Below, one piece after another: positions 10,468 through 23,624 of a stretch of 24,303 nt of DNA (positions are counted from its first letter, which is position 1; each line of letters begins with the position of its first letter). Source of the stretch: a virus; IMG/VR virus record IMGVR_UViG_3300033148_001956, positions 1 through 24,303 of that record. The stretch is one strand, 5' to 3'. The notes beneath the pieces are model-generated. The model saw nothing but the letters and a program-made list of their open reading frames with translations. It was not told the origin of the DNA and did no database searches. The position numbers and the translations under genes were made by a program.

Positions 10468-11769
10468 TTAAATTATATTTTGAACAATGTTTGTTGCTCC
10501 GCCCGCCACAGTATAATCTATTTCTAAAATAGCGGCATCAGCTTGAGATTTTGCATAATCATATACATCAACTTTTTGTGCACCTCCTTGCTCTGTTGCT
10601 AATGCAGCAAATTTTATATTATTACTTGAAGCCCATCCTGTCCTATTTACTATTTCTTGAACAATATCTGTAACTGTAATAGTATTCCAACCTGTTGAAG
10701 ATGGAGCCCAAGCTGTTTTAGCAGTTGTTTTAGTAATATTTCTTGGAGCTGCTGTTCCAGCCCCCCACGCTCCTGCATTATCAACATCATCAGCATAAAT
10801 ATATCCTTCAGGAGTAAAATTTATATTTTTTACTTGTAATTTCAAATTTGCTAAATCTATTGTTGCCCCTTGTGGAACTCCTATTGTTTGAAATCTAAAA
10901 CCTAATCCTCTATAAGTAGATGGAGTGTTTATTGCAAATCCTGACATAGTGCTATTAGTATAATACCAACCATAATCACTTCCAAAGGAAAACATCTCGT
11001 TACCATCATCAGCATTATTAACTATAAGTTCTGTAATATCTGGCACATCAATTACAAGCGGATATTTTATCTTATCAACAAATTCTTTAATTCTTGTTTT
11101 TGAATCTTTTACCTGAATAGTCTGTTCAAAAAATGTTTCTTTTAAAATATAACTTTTTTTATTTTCAATTATCTGTTCATTCAATATTTCTTTTTTTAAT
11201 CTAATTTTATCTCCATCTTCATCAATCCCTTTATGAATTGCGTTTATTTGTAAATTAATATCTTTATCTTCTTCAATTTCCCATTCCCATTCCTTTGAAA
11301 CATTTGCATTTGCTATTTTTTTAAAAAATTGTATTCCAGCAGATTTTATATCTAAACGAATATCAAAATCTTGAATCACATTGCTCCAAACAATTTTGCT
11401 ATTTACATCATCAACCACAGGATTAAGATTAAATTTACTTACTTGTTTATCACCAACAGATTTTAATTTTATTCTGACTATTCCTGATTGTTTAGAACTA
11501 TATATAATTTCTAATCCGCTTTTTAAAATTTCCAAATTGTAAGGTGCTTTATTTATAACAAATTTATCTCCTTTATCTTCAAGAGTTAAATCAGTTTCTT
11601 TCCATTGTTCATTATCATTTTTTAAATCTTCCTTATAATGAATTGCTCCCATCATCTTTCGCAACTTAAACTTTCCTCCGCCCATTGCAAAAGTTTTAGA
11701 GCCTAATGTCCGTTTTTCAATAACTTCAACACTTCCTTTTGGTTTTTCTATTAAACTTGCTGGTTTCAT
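10468..11769 (-). CDS. Large virion-like protein with CBM96/DNRLRE-like C-terminal domain
   Basis: A 433-residue, beta-rich protein. The N-terminal 250 residues (GGGKFKLRKMMGAIHYKED, WKETDLTLE, IQDFDIRLDIKSAGIQFFKK) resemble structural proteins of uncultured phages but have no domain I can name. Residues about 285-420 (GLGFRFQTIGVPQGATI, then ITVTDIVQEIVNRTGW, AAILEIDYTV) follow the pattern of DNRLRE/CBM96-type carbohydrate-binding domains. It starts as ATGA on the sulfotransferase stop and ends 4 nt before the methyltransferase. Its place in the cassette suggests it binds a glycan on the host or on the fibre. There is no signal peptide, consistent with a virion part. Confidence 0.65.
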   Translation of the reverse strand: MKPASLIEKPKGSVEVIEKRTLGSKTFAMGGGKFKLRKMMGAIHYKEDLKNDNEQWKETDLTLEDKGDKFVINKAPYNLEILKSGLEIIYSSKQSGIVRIKLKSVGDKQVSKFNLNPVVDDVNSKIVWSNVIQDFDIRLDIKSAGIQFFKKIANANVSKEWEWEIEEDKDINLQINAIHKGIDEDGDKIRLKKEILNEQIIENKKSYILKETFFEQTIQVKDSKTRIKEFVDKIKYPLVIDVPDITELIVNNADDGNEMFSFGSDYGWYYTNSTMSGFAINTPSTYRGLGFRFQTIGVPQGATIDLANLKLQVKNINFTPEGYIYADDVDNAGAWGAGTAAPRNITKTTAKTAWAPSSTGWNTITVTDIVQEIVNRTGWASSNNIKFAALATEQGGAQKVDVYDYAKSQADAAILEIDYTVAGGATNIVQNII

Positions 11770-12353
11770 ATACCAATAGTTAAATCCTCTAACTTAAATC
11801 TATATAATTGAGGATTAACTATTGATATTGCCTTACTAACATCAATAGGCAATCCAAAATCTTTTAATTTAGTAAATTCTTTTAACGGATTATTTATTAC
11901 ATTTCTATATTGCAAAATAATTAAATCCATATCACTGCGAACATTTATCAAATCAATAGTGTCTTGCATTAACTCATCATATTGTTTTAATGTTGGCGGA
12001 GCTTGCGTATTAAAAAATGCTTCAAATGACTGTCTTATCTCCTCCGTATCTCTTTTCATAAAAACAATTTTATAATTTCCAGCACAAAATTTTGATATTC
12101 CGCCCCATAAACATTTTAATAACTTTCCCTCATACATTTTTGGAAATCCGTATTGTTGATATTCCGTTCTATCTAATTCGTAAAATCCGTTAAGATTTGG
12201 CTTATAATCTTTGTCGCCATGCTGTTCATTCATTTTATCTCTGTTGGGATTAAAAGCTGTTTCTAATCCCCCTGCTTCCAACGCGCTCATCATCATACTT
12301 GTTCCTGTCCGCATATAACCGCTAACAATAAAAGTTTTTTTAAAATTATTCAT
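11766..12353 (-). CDS. Sulfotransferase family protein
   Basis: Probable cytosolic sulfotransferase that moves sulfate from PAPS to a sugar or protein. The 5'-phosphosulfate loop is SGYMRTGTS (11-19), and R101 with S109 (KRDTEEIRQS) gives the R-x7-S pattern of the 3'-phosphate site. No membrane anchor is visible. I chose the ATG at 12353 (195 aa): it overlaps the kinase stop as ATGAATAA and starts directly before the conserved beta strand; an earlier in-frame start at 12425 would lie deep inside the kinase gene. The stop overlaps the next start as ATGA. Pairing with an APS-kinase-like gene supports a sulfation role; the acceptor is unknown. Confidence 0.82.
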   Translation of the reverse strand: MNNFKKTFIVSGYMRTGTSMMMSALEAGGLETAFNPNRDKMNEQHGDKDYKPNLNGFYELDRTEYQQYGFPKMYEGKLLKCLWGGISKFCAGNYKIVFMKRDTEEIRQSFEAFFNTQAPPTLKQYDELMQDTIDLINVRSDMDLIILQYRNVINNPLKEFTKLKDFGLPIDVSKAISIVNPQLYRFKLEDLTIGI

Positions 12354-12705
12354 ACAAATTTGGTTTATCAAAAGGATATTCTTCGCCCTCTTTTCCTCCC
12401 TCAATATATATAAATTTACAATCAATTATTTTTTTAATTTCTTTTCGCAATTCTCCATAAGGACAGATCGTCGCTATAATTATATTATGTCCTTGTTCGC
12501 TTAATACTTTTGCTAATTTTGCTATGCGGATATTTTGCGTTATTCTTCCTTTTCTTGATAAATCTAAATCCGTCCAAACTTCTCTCATTTTATTTCCGTC
12601 TAATAATATTGAATTGCTATAATTAAAAGACGGCTCTGCATTTTTGATTATATTAGCAAGCGTTGTTTTGCCTGCCTTTGTATTTCCTATGATCCAAGTA
12701 ATCAT
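12346..12705 (-). CDS. Mini APS-kinase-like P-loop protein (CysC family)
   Basis: P-loop kinase resembling adenylylsulfate kinase, which makes PAPS, the sulfate donor. Walker A is GNTKAGKT (7-14). The family core follows: LLDGNKMREVW (34-44), the helix with QNIRIAKLAKVLSEQG (57-72) and IIIATICPYGELRKEI (75-90), matching LDGD..R, ENIRR and ISPY..R of CysC. Only 119 residues are present against about 175-200 normally; the substrate-lid segment (DPKGLYKKARAG in CysC) is replaced by a short GGKEGEEY stretch. The D of LDGD is N here. It is 4 nt after the fibre gene and overlaps the sulfotransferase by 8 nt. Supply of PAPS is inferred; another small-molecule kinase is possible. Confidence 0.78.
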   Translation of the reverse strand: MITWIIGNTKAGKTTLANIIKNAEPSFNYSNSILLDGNKMREVWTDLDLSRKGRITQNIRIAKLAKVLSEQGHNIIIATICPYGELRKEIKKIIDCKFIYIEGGKEGEEYPFDKPNLYE

Positions 12706-12709
12706 ATTT

Positions 12710-15085
<2,376 letters not shown>

Positions 15086-19211: not shown

Positions 19212-21641
19212 TTATTTTTCCTTTTTAATAAATCTATTTGCTAAACTGCTTTTTTTAACTATCGGTTTCTTCGGTTGCTTTATTTCGTTTAAAGCATCCC
19301 CCAGTTTAGCTTGTAATGATTTTGGCACTCCTGCTATGGTTGGCTTATCTTCTTCGTCTTGTAATATCTCGACCCATATCCCTCTACAGTTTGTATGGAA
19401 TATCCCCTGTCGCGCGATCGGATCATCCATTTTTACAATTCTGCCGTCCATACTCAAACAAAAATTACAAGTCCTCATATCTAATATCTCCGATCTTTGC
19501 AATGCGTATATTTTAGCAGCGTGCTTTTTAAATGCCTGCCTCCGCCCAATGTTTAGCTGTCCCGCGAGTACCGTCCCTTTTGTCGTCCTGACTAACTGAT
19601 CTATTTTTTTGGCTATTGCTACATCCACCGCTCCTGTCACTTGCGCTGGCGGCCTGCCTTTTTCTAATTGATTGATCAATTCTTTTTTTGCTTCAAACAC
19701 CAAATCGTCAACATGCTTCGTCGCTATCGCGTCTGCCATTAAATCAAGCTGTTTCATATCGTCAGTTGCGTTAGCTGGCGCGCCTACTCCCATTTCACGC
19801 GCCGCATTATTTTTGCCATACTCATAGGCAGATTTCATATAATTTTTGAGCGTCATTCTATATTCTGATTTTAACTTAATACTTAATTCTTTAATTTTGG
19901 CAATATCTTTTTTTCTGACTGCGTCTGATAGCTGGCTGGTATATTTATTTTTTGCCTCTGTTAATATCTCAGTGGTTTCTTTGGAAAAAGCTGCTTCGCT
20001 CTTATCAAGCATATTATTTAAACCATTAAAATTTACTTTCTTTTCGGCAAAGGTCAGCGCTCTCCAACTTTTAAAATCATTCTGTTGCTGAAATATCAAG
20101 CGTTTAATCTCTTTATACTTCTCACTTAATATCGCATTGACTTCGTTAAAAAAATTAGTATCTGAATCAATAGTTTTTATCTTCTCAATGGTCTGGCTAA
20201 TAAAATTTATCTGCTCGGTCATTTTCAAATTACTAATTTTATTTTCTATGCTTGCCCTGATTGTTGCTTTATCGCCTATATCTATAACTCTTTTTTTTTT
20301 AAACTTATTCAGGGTTTCTGATAAGCCAATGTCATCGGTTATGTCATCTTTATTTTTTTTATCAACTTTTTTTTTATCCTTTTTATCGTCTATCTCCTCA
20401 TCCTCCTCGCGCTCAGGCAATCCTAACATTTCACGGAAGTATTGCTCATCATTCTCGCCCGGCTTAATTGCGCCACTCTGAGTCAATCTTTGGTATGCTG
20501 TTGATAACCCTTCAACATCTGCCCTGCTAATTCCCGCATAGGATAATAACGGATATCCATTTTTAAGATTATCAAAATTTAAATCCACTAACTGAGGAAT
20601 AGCATATTTATTAAATACATCTATAATCTGATTTGCTACCGCTTCAAGCGACTGTAAAAATAATTCACTCTGGTCTTGGCTTAATGCCCGTGATCCAACC
20701 GTTCCCGCGCCGAGTTCTAAAAATTGAGCAAGGACAGCTTTTACTATCTCCCTGTTGTGATGAGAGATTGAACTTTTTGGGTCTCTGATGGTATTACCTT
20801 TCATATCCATAAATTCAATTTCGTAATCTGATGGCTCTATGATATACGCTTGCTCATGCGCGCGCAAATTCTTTAAAATCTTTTCAGCTTGTGCTTCGTC
20901 TTTAGGAGTATATCCTTCTGGCATTTTTGCTTTTGGAACTCCTATCGCTTGCCTTTCAAAACCGATTGCTTCAATTTTATAAAAATTATTTTTGTAATAC
21001 CAATGTTTATAAGAAGCTCTCAAAATAGAATTTCCCCACCAATTATCTCCTTCCTTTTCATTTACAAAAACACACAATTTATCCATTGGTATGCTGACTA
21101 ATTCTCCACCTGAAGTCATCTGTTGGATTCCGTTATTTCCATCTTCGGTTTGCCAGTTATGAATACTCTTAGGCATTCGCGGAGCGAGTTTGCGCCAAAC
21201 AATACGCATCTTCCCATTTACTTCTTTTGTGTCAAATACTTTTTCAAAAACCATAACACCATACGGCATCATTAAAAGTGCTTGACGCAAAAGGTCAGCC
21301 CATGTAATTGTCATATATTCAAAAAGCGCGGCATTAATAAAATCCGCGACTTCTTTATCTTGGTCGTCTTCACTGGCAGGTTGAATAAACCAGTTAGCGC
21401 GCCTGATTGGCAGAGAGGTTACTAAAATAGAAGCCTTGACTGTGGCGTCTGATTTTCTCATTTCGTCATACTTCTCTATTCCCTCTGTCCCCTGCAATGT
21501 AGTATTATAATCCTCAGTTATAACTCCGTGAGTTATCTCTATCCCTGTGTCGCCTATTTCCTCTTTGCTTGCCCCTTTTATTTTTTGTGGTTCAGCGGCT
21601 TTTTGTTTGCCAGCTGTAATTTCCAGTCCGAGTATTTTCAT
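19212..21641 (-). CDS. Portal protein (DUF935) fused to MuF-type head protein
   Basis: One 809-residue chain joins two proteins usually encoded separately. Residues about 30-410 match the DUF935/Mu gp29 portal family (for example WADLLRQALLMMPYGVMVFEKVF, QAIGVPKAKMPEG split over 113-242), the dodecameric ring at the packaging vertex. A charged linker (411-437, rich in E, D, K) leads to a long helical region. The C-terminal part ends in the SPP1 gp7/Mu F signature with C725, C728, H749 and C752 (CNFC...HTNC). MuF proteins are minor head proteins carried in the capsid. The gene follows terL after 11 nt. Fusion is natural here: there is one uninterrupted frame across the linker. Confidence 0.94.
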   Translation of the reverse strand: MKILGLEITAGKQKAAEPQKIKGASKEEIGDTGIEITHGVITEDYNTTLQGTEGIEKYDEMRKSDATVKASILVTSLPIRRANWFIQPASEDDQDKEVADFINAALFEYMTITWADLLRQALLMMPYGVMVFEKVFDTKEVNGKMRIVWRKLAPRMPKSIHNWQTEDGNNGIQQMTSGGELVSIPMDKLCVFVNEKEGDNWWGNSILRASYKHWYYKNNFYKIEAIGFERQAIGVPKAKMPEGYTPKDEAQAEKILKNLRAHEQAYIIEPSDYEIEFMDMKGNTIRDPKSSISHHNREIVKAVLAQFLELGAGTVGSRALSQDQSELFLQSLEAVANQIIDVFNKYAIPQLVDLNFDNLKNGYPLLSYAGISRADVEGLSTAYQRLTQSGAIKPGENDEQYFREMLGLPEREEDEEIDDKKDKKKVDKKNKDDITDDIGLSETLNKFKKKRVIDIGDKATIRASIENKISNLKMTEQINFISQTIEKIKTIDSDTNFFNEVNAILSEKYKEIKRLIFQQQNDFKSWRALTFAEKKVNFNGLNNMLDKSEAAFSKETTEILTEAKNKYTSQLSDAVRKKDIAKIKELSIKLKSEYRMTLKNYMKSAYEYGKNNAAREMGVGAPANATDDMKQLDLMADAIATKHVDDLVFEAKKELINQLEKGRPPAQVTGAVDVAIAKKIDQLVRTTKGTVLAGQLNIGRRQAFKKHAAKIYALQRSEILDMRTCNFCLSMDGRIVKMDDPIARQGIFHTNCRGIWVEILQDEEDKPTIAGVPKSLQAKLGDALNEIKQPKKPIVKKSSLANRFIKKEK

Positions 21642-21652
21642 AAATTTTTATT

Positions 21653-23194
21653 TTAAAATTGTTTTTTCATTAATCCGCCTGTGATAGTTTTCTGTTCCTC
21701 TATATTCTTTGCTTGTTTTAATTTTTCTGCATGCTTAGTCAATGGCCAGTGCTGTAAAGCGCACATTAACGAATCTGGTATATGATCATCTTTTTTAACT
21801 GGCTTGTCACTCCCTTCTTGATAGCGGTATCTTTTAAGTTGCCACTTAGCTTCAATCAATCGTTTAGGTATTTTAATCTTTGCTCTCTCAAAATAAGCGC
21901 GAAGATTTCCAACCATACCGTCTTTTTCTTTTCCGAATACTACTTCAATAACCGCACATCGCAATCCAGCTTTTTTCAATGCATTTTTTAAATCTGCGTT
22001 TTCAAACTTTCCAGCCGAGTCGGCATATATAAATCTGTGTCCGCTTTCCTTTACTCTCTTGACAACATACTTAATTATTATTTCACTTCTAACTTGAGTA
22101 AAATTTTTATTCTCTATAAGAATTTTAATACCATCGCGCCACTTCATTAAATCTGTAACTGAGGTCATTGAGCTGAAGCCCCAGTCAATTCCTATTATCC
22201 GTTCTGCGTCTTTAATTATATTATACACCTTTTCTATTTTGTCGTCAAAAATTGAAGCCTCCACATCCTCCGGTTTCAATACCAGCCCAGCCGCGCTCGG
22301 CCTGTTTCCCATGTATTCTACTAAAAACCAATCAAGCGTCGGCTTCTCTCTCCACGCCTGAATAATATTATCAATCGGTATCCAACCCTCATTGTCGCCA
22401 ACCCTTCCCTTTGCCAATTTTTTTAATTTTTGCAAATCTGGTATCTCCTCATTCAATGTCGGATCATTCCATATCCTAAAATCAAAGGATTGTACTATAT
22501 CAAATATATCCCAGCTGAACCGAACATAGCCGAGTTCGTCGGCTTTGTCCCATGTCTCCTGAAAAATACCAAATATCTTATGGAATGTACTGGTCATTAT
22601 TACCAGCTGGTTTTGGCTGGTATTAACCATTGGCAATGCGTCTTTTATCAATTCATCTTTTGTCTCACAAACCTCATCAGCCATCAGGACATCTGGATGA
22701 GGACCGCGAATCTGTTTCGTTGACGCAGTCACGCATTTAAAATAATTTCTATCTTTAGTTTTGGTTTCGCTGATTGTTGGCTCGCCTTTTAAATAATCTA
22801 AAATAACAGGATCAAGGTAGCAGTATTCTGTAAAATAATTATAAACAATTTTTGCCTGCGCTTCCGCGCCACCCATATCTATAACTGATCTATCTTTAAA
22901 AAACCAAAGACAAAAACCGAGCGCAGATAGGAATTTACTTTTCCCCCCGCCTCTCGGTCCCTTGATTATTATTCTCTTTGTTTTGCCCGTCCACGCTGTC
23001 GCAAACATTCTCTTGAATATCTTCGGCCACTTCATTGTCGGCACTCTTGTCTTCATGAAGCTTATCGGTTTGTGTTGGTTTAATTTTTTCAGATCCACAT
23101 TCGTCCTTTCCTTCCATTTTTCCACTTTCGCTATTGTCTCCTTTGGTGTGAGCGATTTCGTTTGCTTCAATAATAATTTTGTTGACTGTGTCAT
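21653..23194 (-). CDS. terL: Terminase large subunit (ATPase/nuclease)
   Basis: Packaging motor that pumps DNA into the prohead through the portal and cuts concatemers. Visible motifs: Walker A GPRGGGKS (79-86), Walker B VLMADE (169-174), coupling motif TST (201-203). In the RNase H-like nuclease half the likely metal ligands are D337 (GIDWGFSS), D392 (YADSAG) and the DDHIPD cluster (469-474). Length 513 aa is normal. The ATG at 23194 lies inside terS; M47 or M54 are alternatives, but Walker A falls inside the terS overlap with any of them. No SD is seen. The stop is followed after 11 nt by the portal gene. Confidence 0.96.
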   Translation of the reverse strand: MTQSTKLLLKQTKSLTPKETIAKVEKWKERTNVDLKKLNQHKPISFMKTRVPTMKWPKIFKRMFATAWTGKTKRIIIKGPRGGGKSKFLSALGFCLWFFKDRSVIDMGGAEAQAKIVYNYFTEYCYLDPVILDYLKGEPTISETKTKDRNYFKCVTASTKQIRGPHPDVLMADEVCETKDELIKDALPMVNTSQNQLVIMTSTFHKIFGIFQETWDKADELGYVRFSWDIFDIVQSFDFRIWNDPTLNEEIPDLQKLKKLAKGRVGDNEGWIPIDNIIQAWREKPTLDWFLVEYMGNRPSAAGLVLKPEDVEASIFDDKIEKVYNIIKDAERIIGIDWGFSSMTSVTDLMKWRDGIKILIENKNFTQVRSEIIIKYVVKRVKESGHRFIYADSAGKFENADLKNALKKAGLRCAVIEVVFGKEKDGMVGNLRAYFERAKIKIPKRLIEAKWQLKRYRYQEGSDKPVKKDDHIPDSLMCALQHWPLTKHAEKLKQAKNIEEQKTITGGLMKKQF

Positions 23195-23624
23195 AAAATT
23201 GTTGTTGTTTATTTTCTGGCAAAACTTTAATTAAAGTTAGCAAATCTTCTTTTGTAAATTCTTGAACCTGTTTAACGATTTGAGTTTTATCCCATCCTAA
23301 AAAATAACTTAGCCACAGCTCTATTGAATACGGATTTCCCTTGACGCAAGAATTCCGCCAACCTGCGAAAACTGAACCTGTATGTTCTCTCCCCCAGTCG
23401 TCTCTAATCTTTTGTATCCGTTTATCAAAGTCATCCCGCTTTTTCCAATCTGATAAAGTATCAGGATGCACATCATATTTCATAGCAAATTGAGCTTGTG
23501 TCTTACATCCATATATTTCCTCGCGCTCATTCATAGGCAAAGCAAACCATTGAATAAATTTAAAATACTCGCTTGACTTGTATGGTTCATTCTCGGTTTT
23601 TATAGGTGGTTGTTTATCACTCAT
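22935..23624 (-). CDS. terS: Terminase small subunit-like protein
   Basis: Likely the DNA-recognition subunit of the packaging motor, which binds the packaging site and hands DNA to TerL. Residues about 41-66 (KTQAQFAMKYDVHPDTLSDW) form a helix-turn-helix like the phBC6A51-type HTH of small terminases. Residues 67-150 are helical and suited to oligomerisation. The last 80 residues are a polar, acidic, low-complexity tail (many E, D, N, K). The gene lies directly upstream of terL, follows the predicted promoter, and its last 260 nt are also read as the N-terminus of TerL in the +1 frame. Length (229 aa) is somewhat long for TerS because of this tail. The call rests on the HTH and position; a general HTH regulator is less likely. 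Confidence 0.82.
   Translation of the reverse strand: MSDKQPPIKTENEPYKSSEYFKFIQWFALPMNEREEIYGCKTQAQFAMKYDVHPDTLSDWKKRDDFDKRIQKIRDDWGREHTGSVFAGWRNSCVKGNPYSIELWLSYFLGWDKTQIVKQVQEFTKEDLLTLIKVLPENKQQQFYDTVNKIIIEANEIAHTKGDNSESGKMEGKDECGSEKIKPTQTDKLHEDKSADNEVAEDIQENVCDSVDGQNKENNNQGTERRGEK

Follow-up and report, generated by a model that had tools for sequence, protein, structure and literature searches.

The genes for the small and large terminase subunits (terS and terL) of a tailed phage, represented by a 24,303-nt IMG/VR virus contig (the window, meaning the whole stretch of DNA that was analysed), share 260 nt in different reading frames, so that the final part of TerS is written over the codons of TerL up to and including its Walker A motif. 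We consider it highly probable that this is a real and selectively kept terminal terS/terL overlap, in which TerS gained an acidic, disordered C-terminal arm by read-through.

The packaging locus and the geometry of the overlap

The packaging genes of the window all lie on the minus strand, the gene for the portal being followed by those for the head protease and then the major head protein (Table 1). On the same strand, a 791-aa tail-fibre-like protein (window 12710-15085) matched families of fibre and collagen-like minor tail proteins many times over, and downstream of its gene the neighbouring ORFs at 11766-12425 and 12346-12705 overlap by 80 nt.

Table 1 Features of the terminase locus in the window
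Feature	Position	Strand	Description	Evidence for identity
terS, terminase small subunit	22935..23624	-	229 aa, ATG start	HTH, helical core, position
terL, terminase large subunit	21653..23194	-	513 aa, ATG start	PHROG and fold matches
terS/terL overlap	22935..23194	-	Out of frame, exactly 260 nt; TerL is the +1 frame of TerS	
Overprinted TerS tail	22935..23135	-	Acidic, predicted disordered; residues 164-229 plus stop, wholly from TerL codons	
TerL Walker A codons	22937..22960	-	GPRGGGKS, TerL residues 79-86	
TerS stop	22935..22937	-	TAA, built from TerL codons AGT-AAA (S86-K87)	
terL start	23192..23194	-	ATG inside TerS codons TAT GAC (Y144-D145), last predicted TerS helix	
Portal gene	19212..21641	-	Gene after terL in the packaging operon; fusion of a Mu-type portal and a MuF-like domain	

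The identity of the terL product is firm. It matched the PHROG TerL families (E 3e-25), and its fold is that of the T4 gp17, D6E, HK97 and Sf6 large subunits (Foldseek, E down to 1e-16), with a C-terminal part matching the G20c and P22 nuclease domains (Foldseek). RGGGKS of the Walker A motif was invariant in 15 relatives, as in a P-loop ATPase, and invariant acidic columns (D337, D392 and D470/D474) marked a C-terminal RNase H-like nuclease. The start Met was likewise an invariant column across the 15 relatives, and where the overlap precedes Pro43 the TerL frame held 0 stops against 19 expected when TerS codons were shuffled in the 12 long-overlap members described below; the terL start is therefore not over-called. 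In the core of the long-overlap clade the TerS residue after the Tyr/His at the terL ATG varies (D, G, E or A) and its codon always begins with G, because the terL ATG needs that base. As a separate observation, the terL start in many short-overlap relatives falls on the codons of a conserved TerS F-Y-D motif, often with no evident Shine-Dalgarno sequence.

TerS was identified by several weaker signals in combination with its place beside terL. It matched PHROG terminase-small-subunit families weakly (E 0.002-0.009), its homologue L085 matched the Pfam gp3 DNA-packaging family (GP3_package) at 2e-6, just under the family cut-off, and structural searches gave a weak Foldseek match to the phage protein 2ao9 and a BFVD match to a DNA-packaging small subunit (0.02). 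In a Pfam scan of TerS and TerL no family exceeded its cut-off. Helices were predicted over residues 17-163 of TerS with pLDDT mostly >80, which together with weak HTH family matches gives the protein an N-terminal HTH and a helical core.

A preliminary description made from the letters of the window had placed TerL in the +1 frame of TerS and had the TerL Walker A motif sharing DNA with the last TerS residues. The coordinates and frames proved correct, and the ORFs confirmed the sharing: the bases that encode GPRGGGKS in TerL are read in TerS as ...NNNQGTERRGEK followed directly by the stop codon. Predicted peptides of the TerS tail include ...EVAEDIQENVCDSVDGQNK...

Distribution and origin of the long overlap

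We compared about 47 related IMG/VR viral loci, together with a scan of genome contigs, and listed the stops in the TerS frame relative to Walker A. A long overlap (242-380 nt) was present in 12 distinct contigs, the window included; additional near-identical copies were left out of this count. All 12 had 0 TerS-frame stops before Walker A, and every other locus had at least one. In 10/12 long members the TerS stop lay +17 or +23 nt from the start of Walker A, and in the two others at +47 and +119. In the remaining relatives TerS terminates 4-208 nt before Walker A, within or before the stretch that matches window 22935-23135, and the overlap with terL is mostly ~53-160 nt. The only relative from the scan of genome contigs was a Rhodospirillales MAG, and its overlap is short. 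A start of terL inside terS is also seen in the short-overlap relatives, for example L004, L010 and L073.

This comparison bears on two rival readings, both centred on a G6-A4 run that lies immediately 5' of the TerS stop. A sequencing or assembly indel in this pair of homopolymers might have falsely joined the frames; 11 other contigs share the same open frame with nearly the same stop position, and we reject this explanation as scarcely credible. The preliminary description had also raised a +1 slip on the run that would fuse TerS to the TerL motor domain. The product of such a slip would read GTERRGKS, which by chance fits GxxxxGKS, with TerS sequence in place of the conserved TerL region that precedes Walker A. 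The run is confined to the window and absent from the other 11 long members, which use in-frame stops, so there is no conserved slippery site for a programmed +1 frameshift. We have abandoned this suggestion as very improbable.

In a TerL tree built from Walker A onward, which excludes the overlap region, 11 long members formed one branch (support 97/87, 97% of bootstraps) with the window as its deepest member; one long fragment and the very divergent L060 were omitted from this tree, and a first tree that included L060 left a single origin of the long overlap unresolved. We infer that the long state derived from the short one, a polarity that depends on a root without firm placement. Early termination of TerS in relatives, which the preliminary description had set against the overlap, was found only outside the long clade and so dates the trait without refuting the overlap, which is conserved inside it. 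L036 (IMGVR_UViG_3300022204_000028), a long branch adjoining the clade in the tree, has an overlap of ~160 nt in which TerS stops 82 nt short of Walker A; it may represent a transitional step.

The position at which TerS stops has a simple explanation. In the +1 frame the TerL codon pairs GGT-AAR and AGT-AAR both read TAA, so that a read-through that avoids earlier stops tends to terminate at the P-loop, and in many short-overlap relatives this latent stop is likewise present at +17. The preliminary description had drawn attention to the coverage of the Walker A codons. This coverage is real, and termination of TerS there is largely passive, so that a special role of the Walker A codons is unneeded.

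Selection in the TerS frame

When TerL of the window was shuffled synonymously, the TerS frame stayed open in 0.17% of cases (P = 0.0017), with 4.8 stops expected and none present. For the 12 long members together the same procedure gave ~32 expected TerS-frame stops and 0 found, a figure that does not amount to 12 independent tests because the members are related. With the result for the TerL frame given above, both frames have thus been kept open in the long members. The TerS frame stayed open although third positions have diverged strongly among the long members (57% mismatch), and the other alternative frame over the overlap contained many stops.

TerL third positions are TerS first positions, and base composition there can be compared with the expectation from each phage's own TerL codon usage. 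The stretch from TerL Pro43 to Walker A is overlapped mainly in the long clade, and in it that clade had more G at TerL third positions than expected (182 vs 138 expected, p = 0.001); the two short groups showed no significant excess (161/152 and 215/202 observed/expected). Asp and Glu in the TerS frame over this stretch made up 18.4% in the long clade vs 12.1% expected (p = 0.0005) and 31% vs 20% in the window alone, and did not depart from expectation in either short group. In the long clade, TerL first-position differences stood to second-position differences in a ratio of 1.14 in the overlap vs 1.34 downstream, with no such shift in the short group SA (1.31 vs 1.32). T3 depletion past Pro43 was not significant over the long group (p = 0.18). 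Similarity in the TerS frame, scored in sliding windows, was raised in the overlap, yet 13.5% of downstream TerL windows reach the same excess, and for this reason we relied on the composition and stop tests instead.

The simplest alternative to selection is that the TerS stop was lost once and that the resulting tail, though translated, has no function and is tolerated on account of its disorder, with the frame held open by inertia. Disordered tails are cheap, the tail residues are poorly conserved, and GGT-AAR/AGT-AAR passively provide the stop at Walker A. A neutral tail would nevertheless have been truncated repeatedly over such divergent lineages, given the number of stops expected and the absence of any, and neither the third-position G excess nor an acidity beyond the needs of TerL would follow. 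We therefore regard a tail of this passive kind as rather unlikely.

A second alternative places the constraint on the bases themselves, through a packaging site (pac or cos) or a structure that governs TerL translation, and makes the open TerS frame a by-product. There are precedents in the pac sites inside terS of P22 and SPP1 (SPP1: PMC6316719), and third positions varied slightly less in the overlap than they did downstream. Such an element would not clear stops from one frame while the other alternative frame keeps many, nor would it favour third-position G and TerS-frame acidic residues over the whole 250 nt, and 57% of third-position comparisons still show a difference. As the sole cause it is improbable; an element of the packaging site or the RNA could contribute some constraint, and would leave the frame-specific stop avoidance and the acidity unexplained.

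The sequence signatures in the two frames instead indicate that the overlap is held by selection on a second frame, beyond what TerL needs, in the long clade only. Because the G excess and the acidity go beyond TerL and codon usage in that clade alone, the TerS tail, overprinted on TerL, is very likely translated and selected. The preliminary description had likewise seen an acidic TerS tail overprinting a constrained TerL region, and this is borne out by its retention in one clade, its absence from the sister groups and the coding signatures of the TerS frame. Residue-level conservation of the tail is modest: between TerS of the window and the other long TerS proteins it amounts to 24-33% overall, and tails in the core of the group share an E(A/T)DNDAQDV-like motif. 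Judged from these patterns, the tail is apparently selected mainly for its presence, its acidity and probably its disorder, and not for a precise sequence.

The proposed acidic TerS arm and comparison with known systems

The AlphaFold model of TerS from the window is folded over ~10-163, where the last helix terminates, and the tail beyond has block-mean pLDDT of 44-58. TerS overlap tails carried a charge of -5 to -11 in 11/12 long members (the tail of L034 is neutral), and the TerL segment before Walker A carried +4 to +17. We propose that in the ancestor of one clade the TerS frame lost the stop codon or codons shortly past the terL start, and that TerS would then have continued, read in the +1 frame over the TerL N-terminal region, as far as the next stop, which the P-loop codons supply. 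The result would be a C-terminal tail of ~60-80 residues, disordered and mostly acidic, lying beyond the folded core of TerS and acting as a flexible arm, which may contact the basic N-terminus of TerL or the portal. Translation of terL would start de novo inside terS, since coupling of a stop to a start is implausible over 260 nt.

The C-termini of the lambda and P22 small subunits bind TerL, and in P22 TerS residues 140-162 bind TerL 1-58 (PMC9611059). By analogy with these two phages, the tail is most likely a flexible arm that docks on TerL or the portal. The P22 and lambda arms (PMC9611059) resemble it in being flexible parts that follow the TerS core and lie beside the same partner, and they are likely functional analogues; they differ in being hardly encoded inside terL (23-26 nt).

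It is conceivable, if doubtful, that the shared DNA encodes both halves of a contact, a basic N-terminal segment of TerL in one frame and, in the +1 frame, an acidic TerS tail as its binding partner. The genetic code would help such complementarity, because an A-first TerL codon such as AAG after a G-ending codon yields GAA, GAT, GAC or GAG (Glu/Asp) in TerS. A basic TerL N-terminus is also present in the short-overlap relatives, so that the pairing of charges is not specific to the long clade and the argument is weak. Should both halves indeed lie in the same DNA, the partners would be locked together in evolution and inherited as one unit.

The preliminary description was right that the overlap is unusually long: annotated terS/terL overlaps are 26 nt in lambda (nu1/A), 23 nt in P22 (3/2) and 4 nt in SPP1 (1/2), and HK97 has none. 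Lambda, P22 and SPP1 share with the window the gene order and strand and the placing of the terS 3' end over the terL 5' start. Here, by contrast, the overlap (260 nt, 242-380 in the clade) reaches the Walker A codons and encodes a whole extra TerS tail. SPP1 terS and terL share AUGA (PMC6316719), whereas in the window TerL must start without stop-start coupling. Viral overprints and terminal overlaps are known, for example phiX174 A/K, with disordered products and stop-avoiding T depletion (PMC8227390). The shifted-frame overprint and the disordered product are common to these cases and ours; the difference is that here an existing packaging protein was extended over the P-loop of its partner, with no new accessory protein. 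A literature search, with limited coverage of subscription journals, found no description of a long terS/terL overlap. The kind of arrangement, a viral terminal overprint with a disordered product, is thus known, and its place and length appear new to us.

A tblastn search with TerL of the window against 50,697 phage records gave no match, and searches of phage records with one long-clade and one short-clade TerL found only the Altiarchaeum virus Altivir_8_HURL (BK059162); among the phage records no cultured long-clade phage was found. This virus, the sole annotated distant relative that we found, has a short overlap only. Its terL ORF (L097, BK059162.1, 488-1843) is open from the ATG at 488, contains LPRGASKS and shares 65 nt, again in the +1 frame, with the CDS upstream of it (1-552); the deposited terL CDS starts at 854 and is thus without Walker A. 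Prodigal limits same-strand overlaps to ~60 nt. Where gene callers impose such limits, terL in phages of this kind is liable to be truncated past Walker A or terS to be dropped, and the terL of the deposited Altivir_8 record is cut short in this way.

The long clade would offer a natural example, shared by all its members, of a packaging protein that acquired a long arm through overprinting of the part of its partner's motor under the tightest constraint, and it may serve as a clean system in which to study the origin of TerS arms and the evolution of TerS-TerL recognition.
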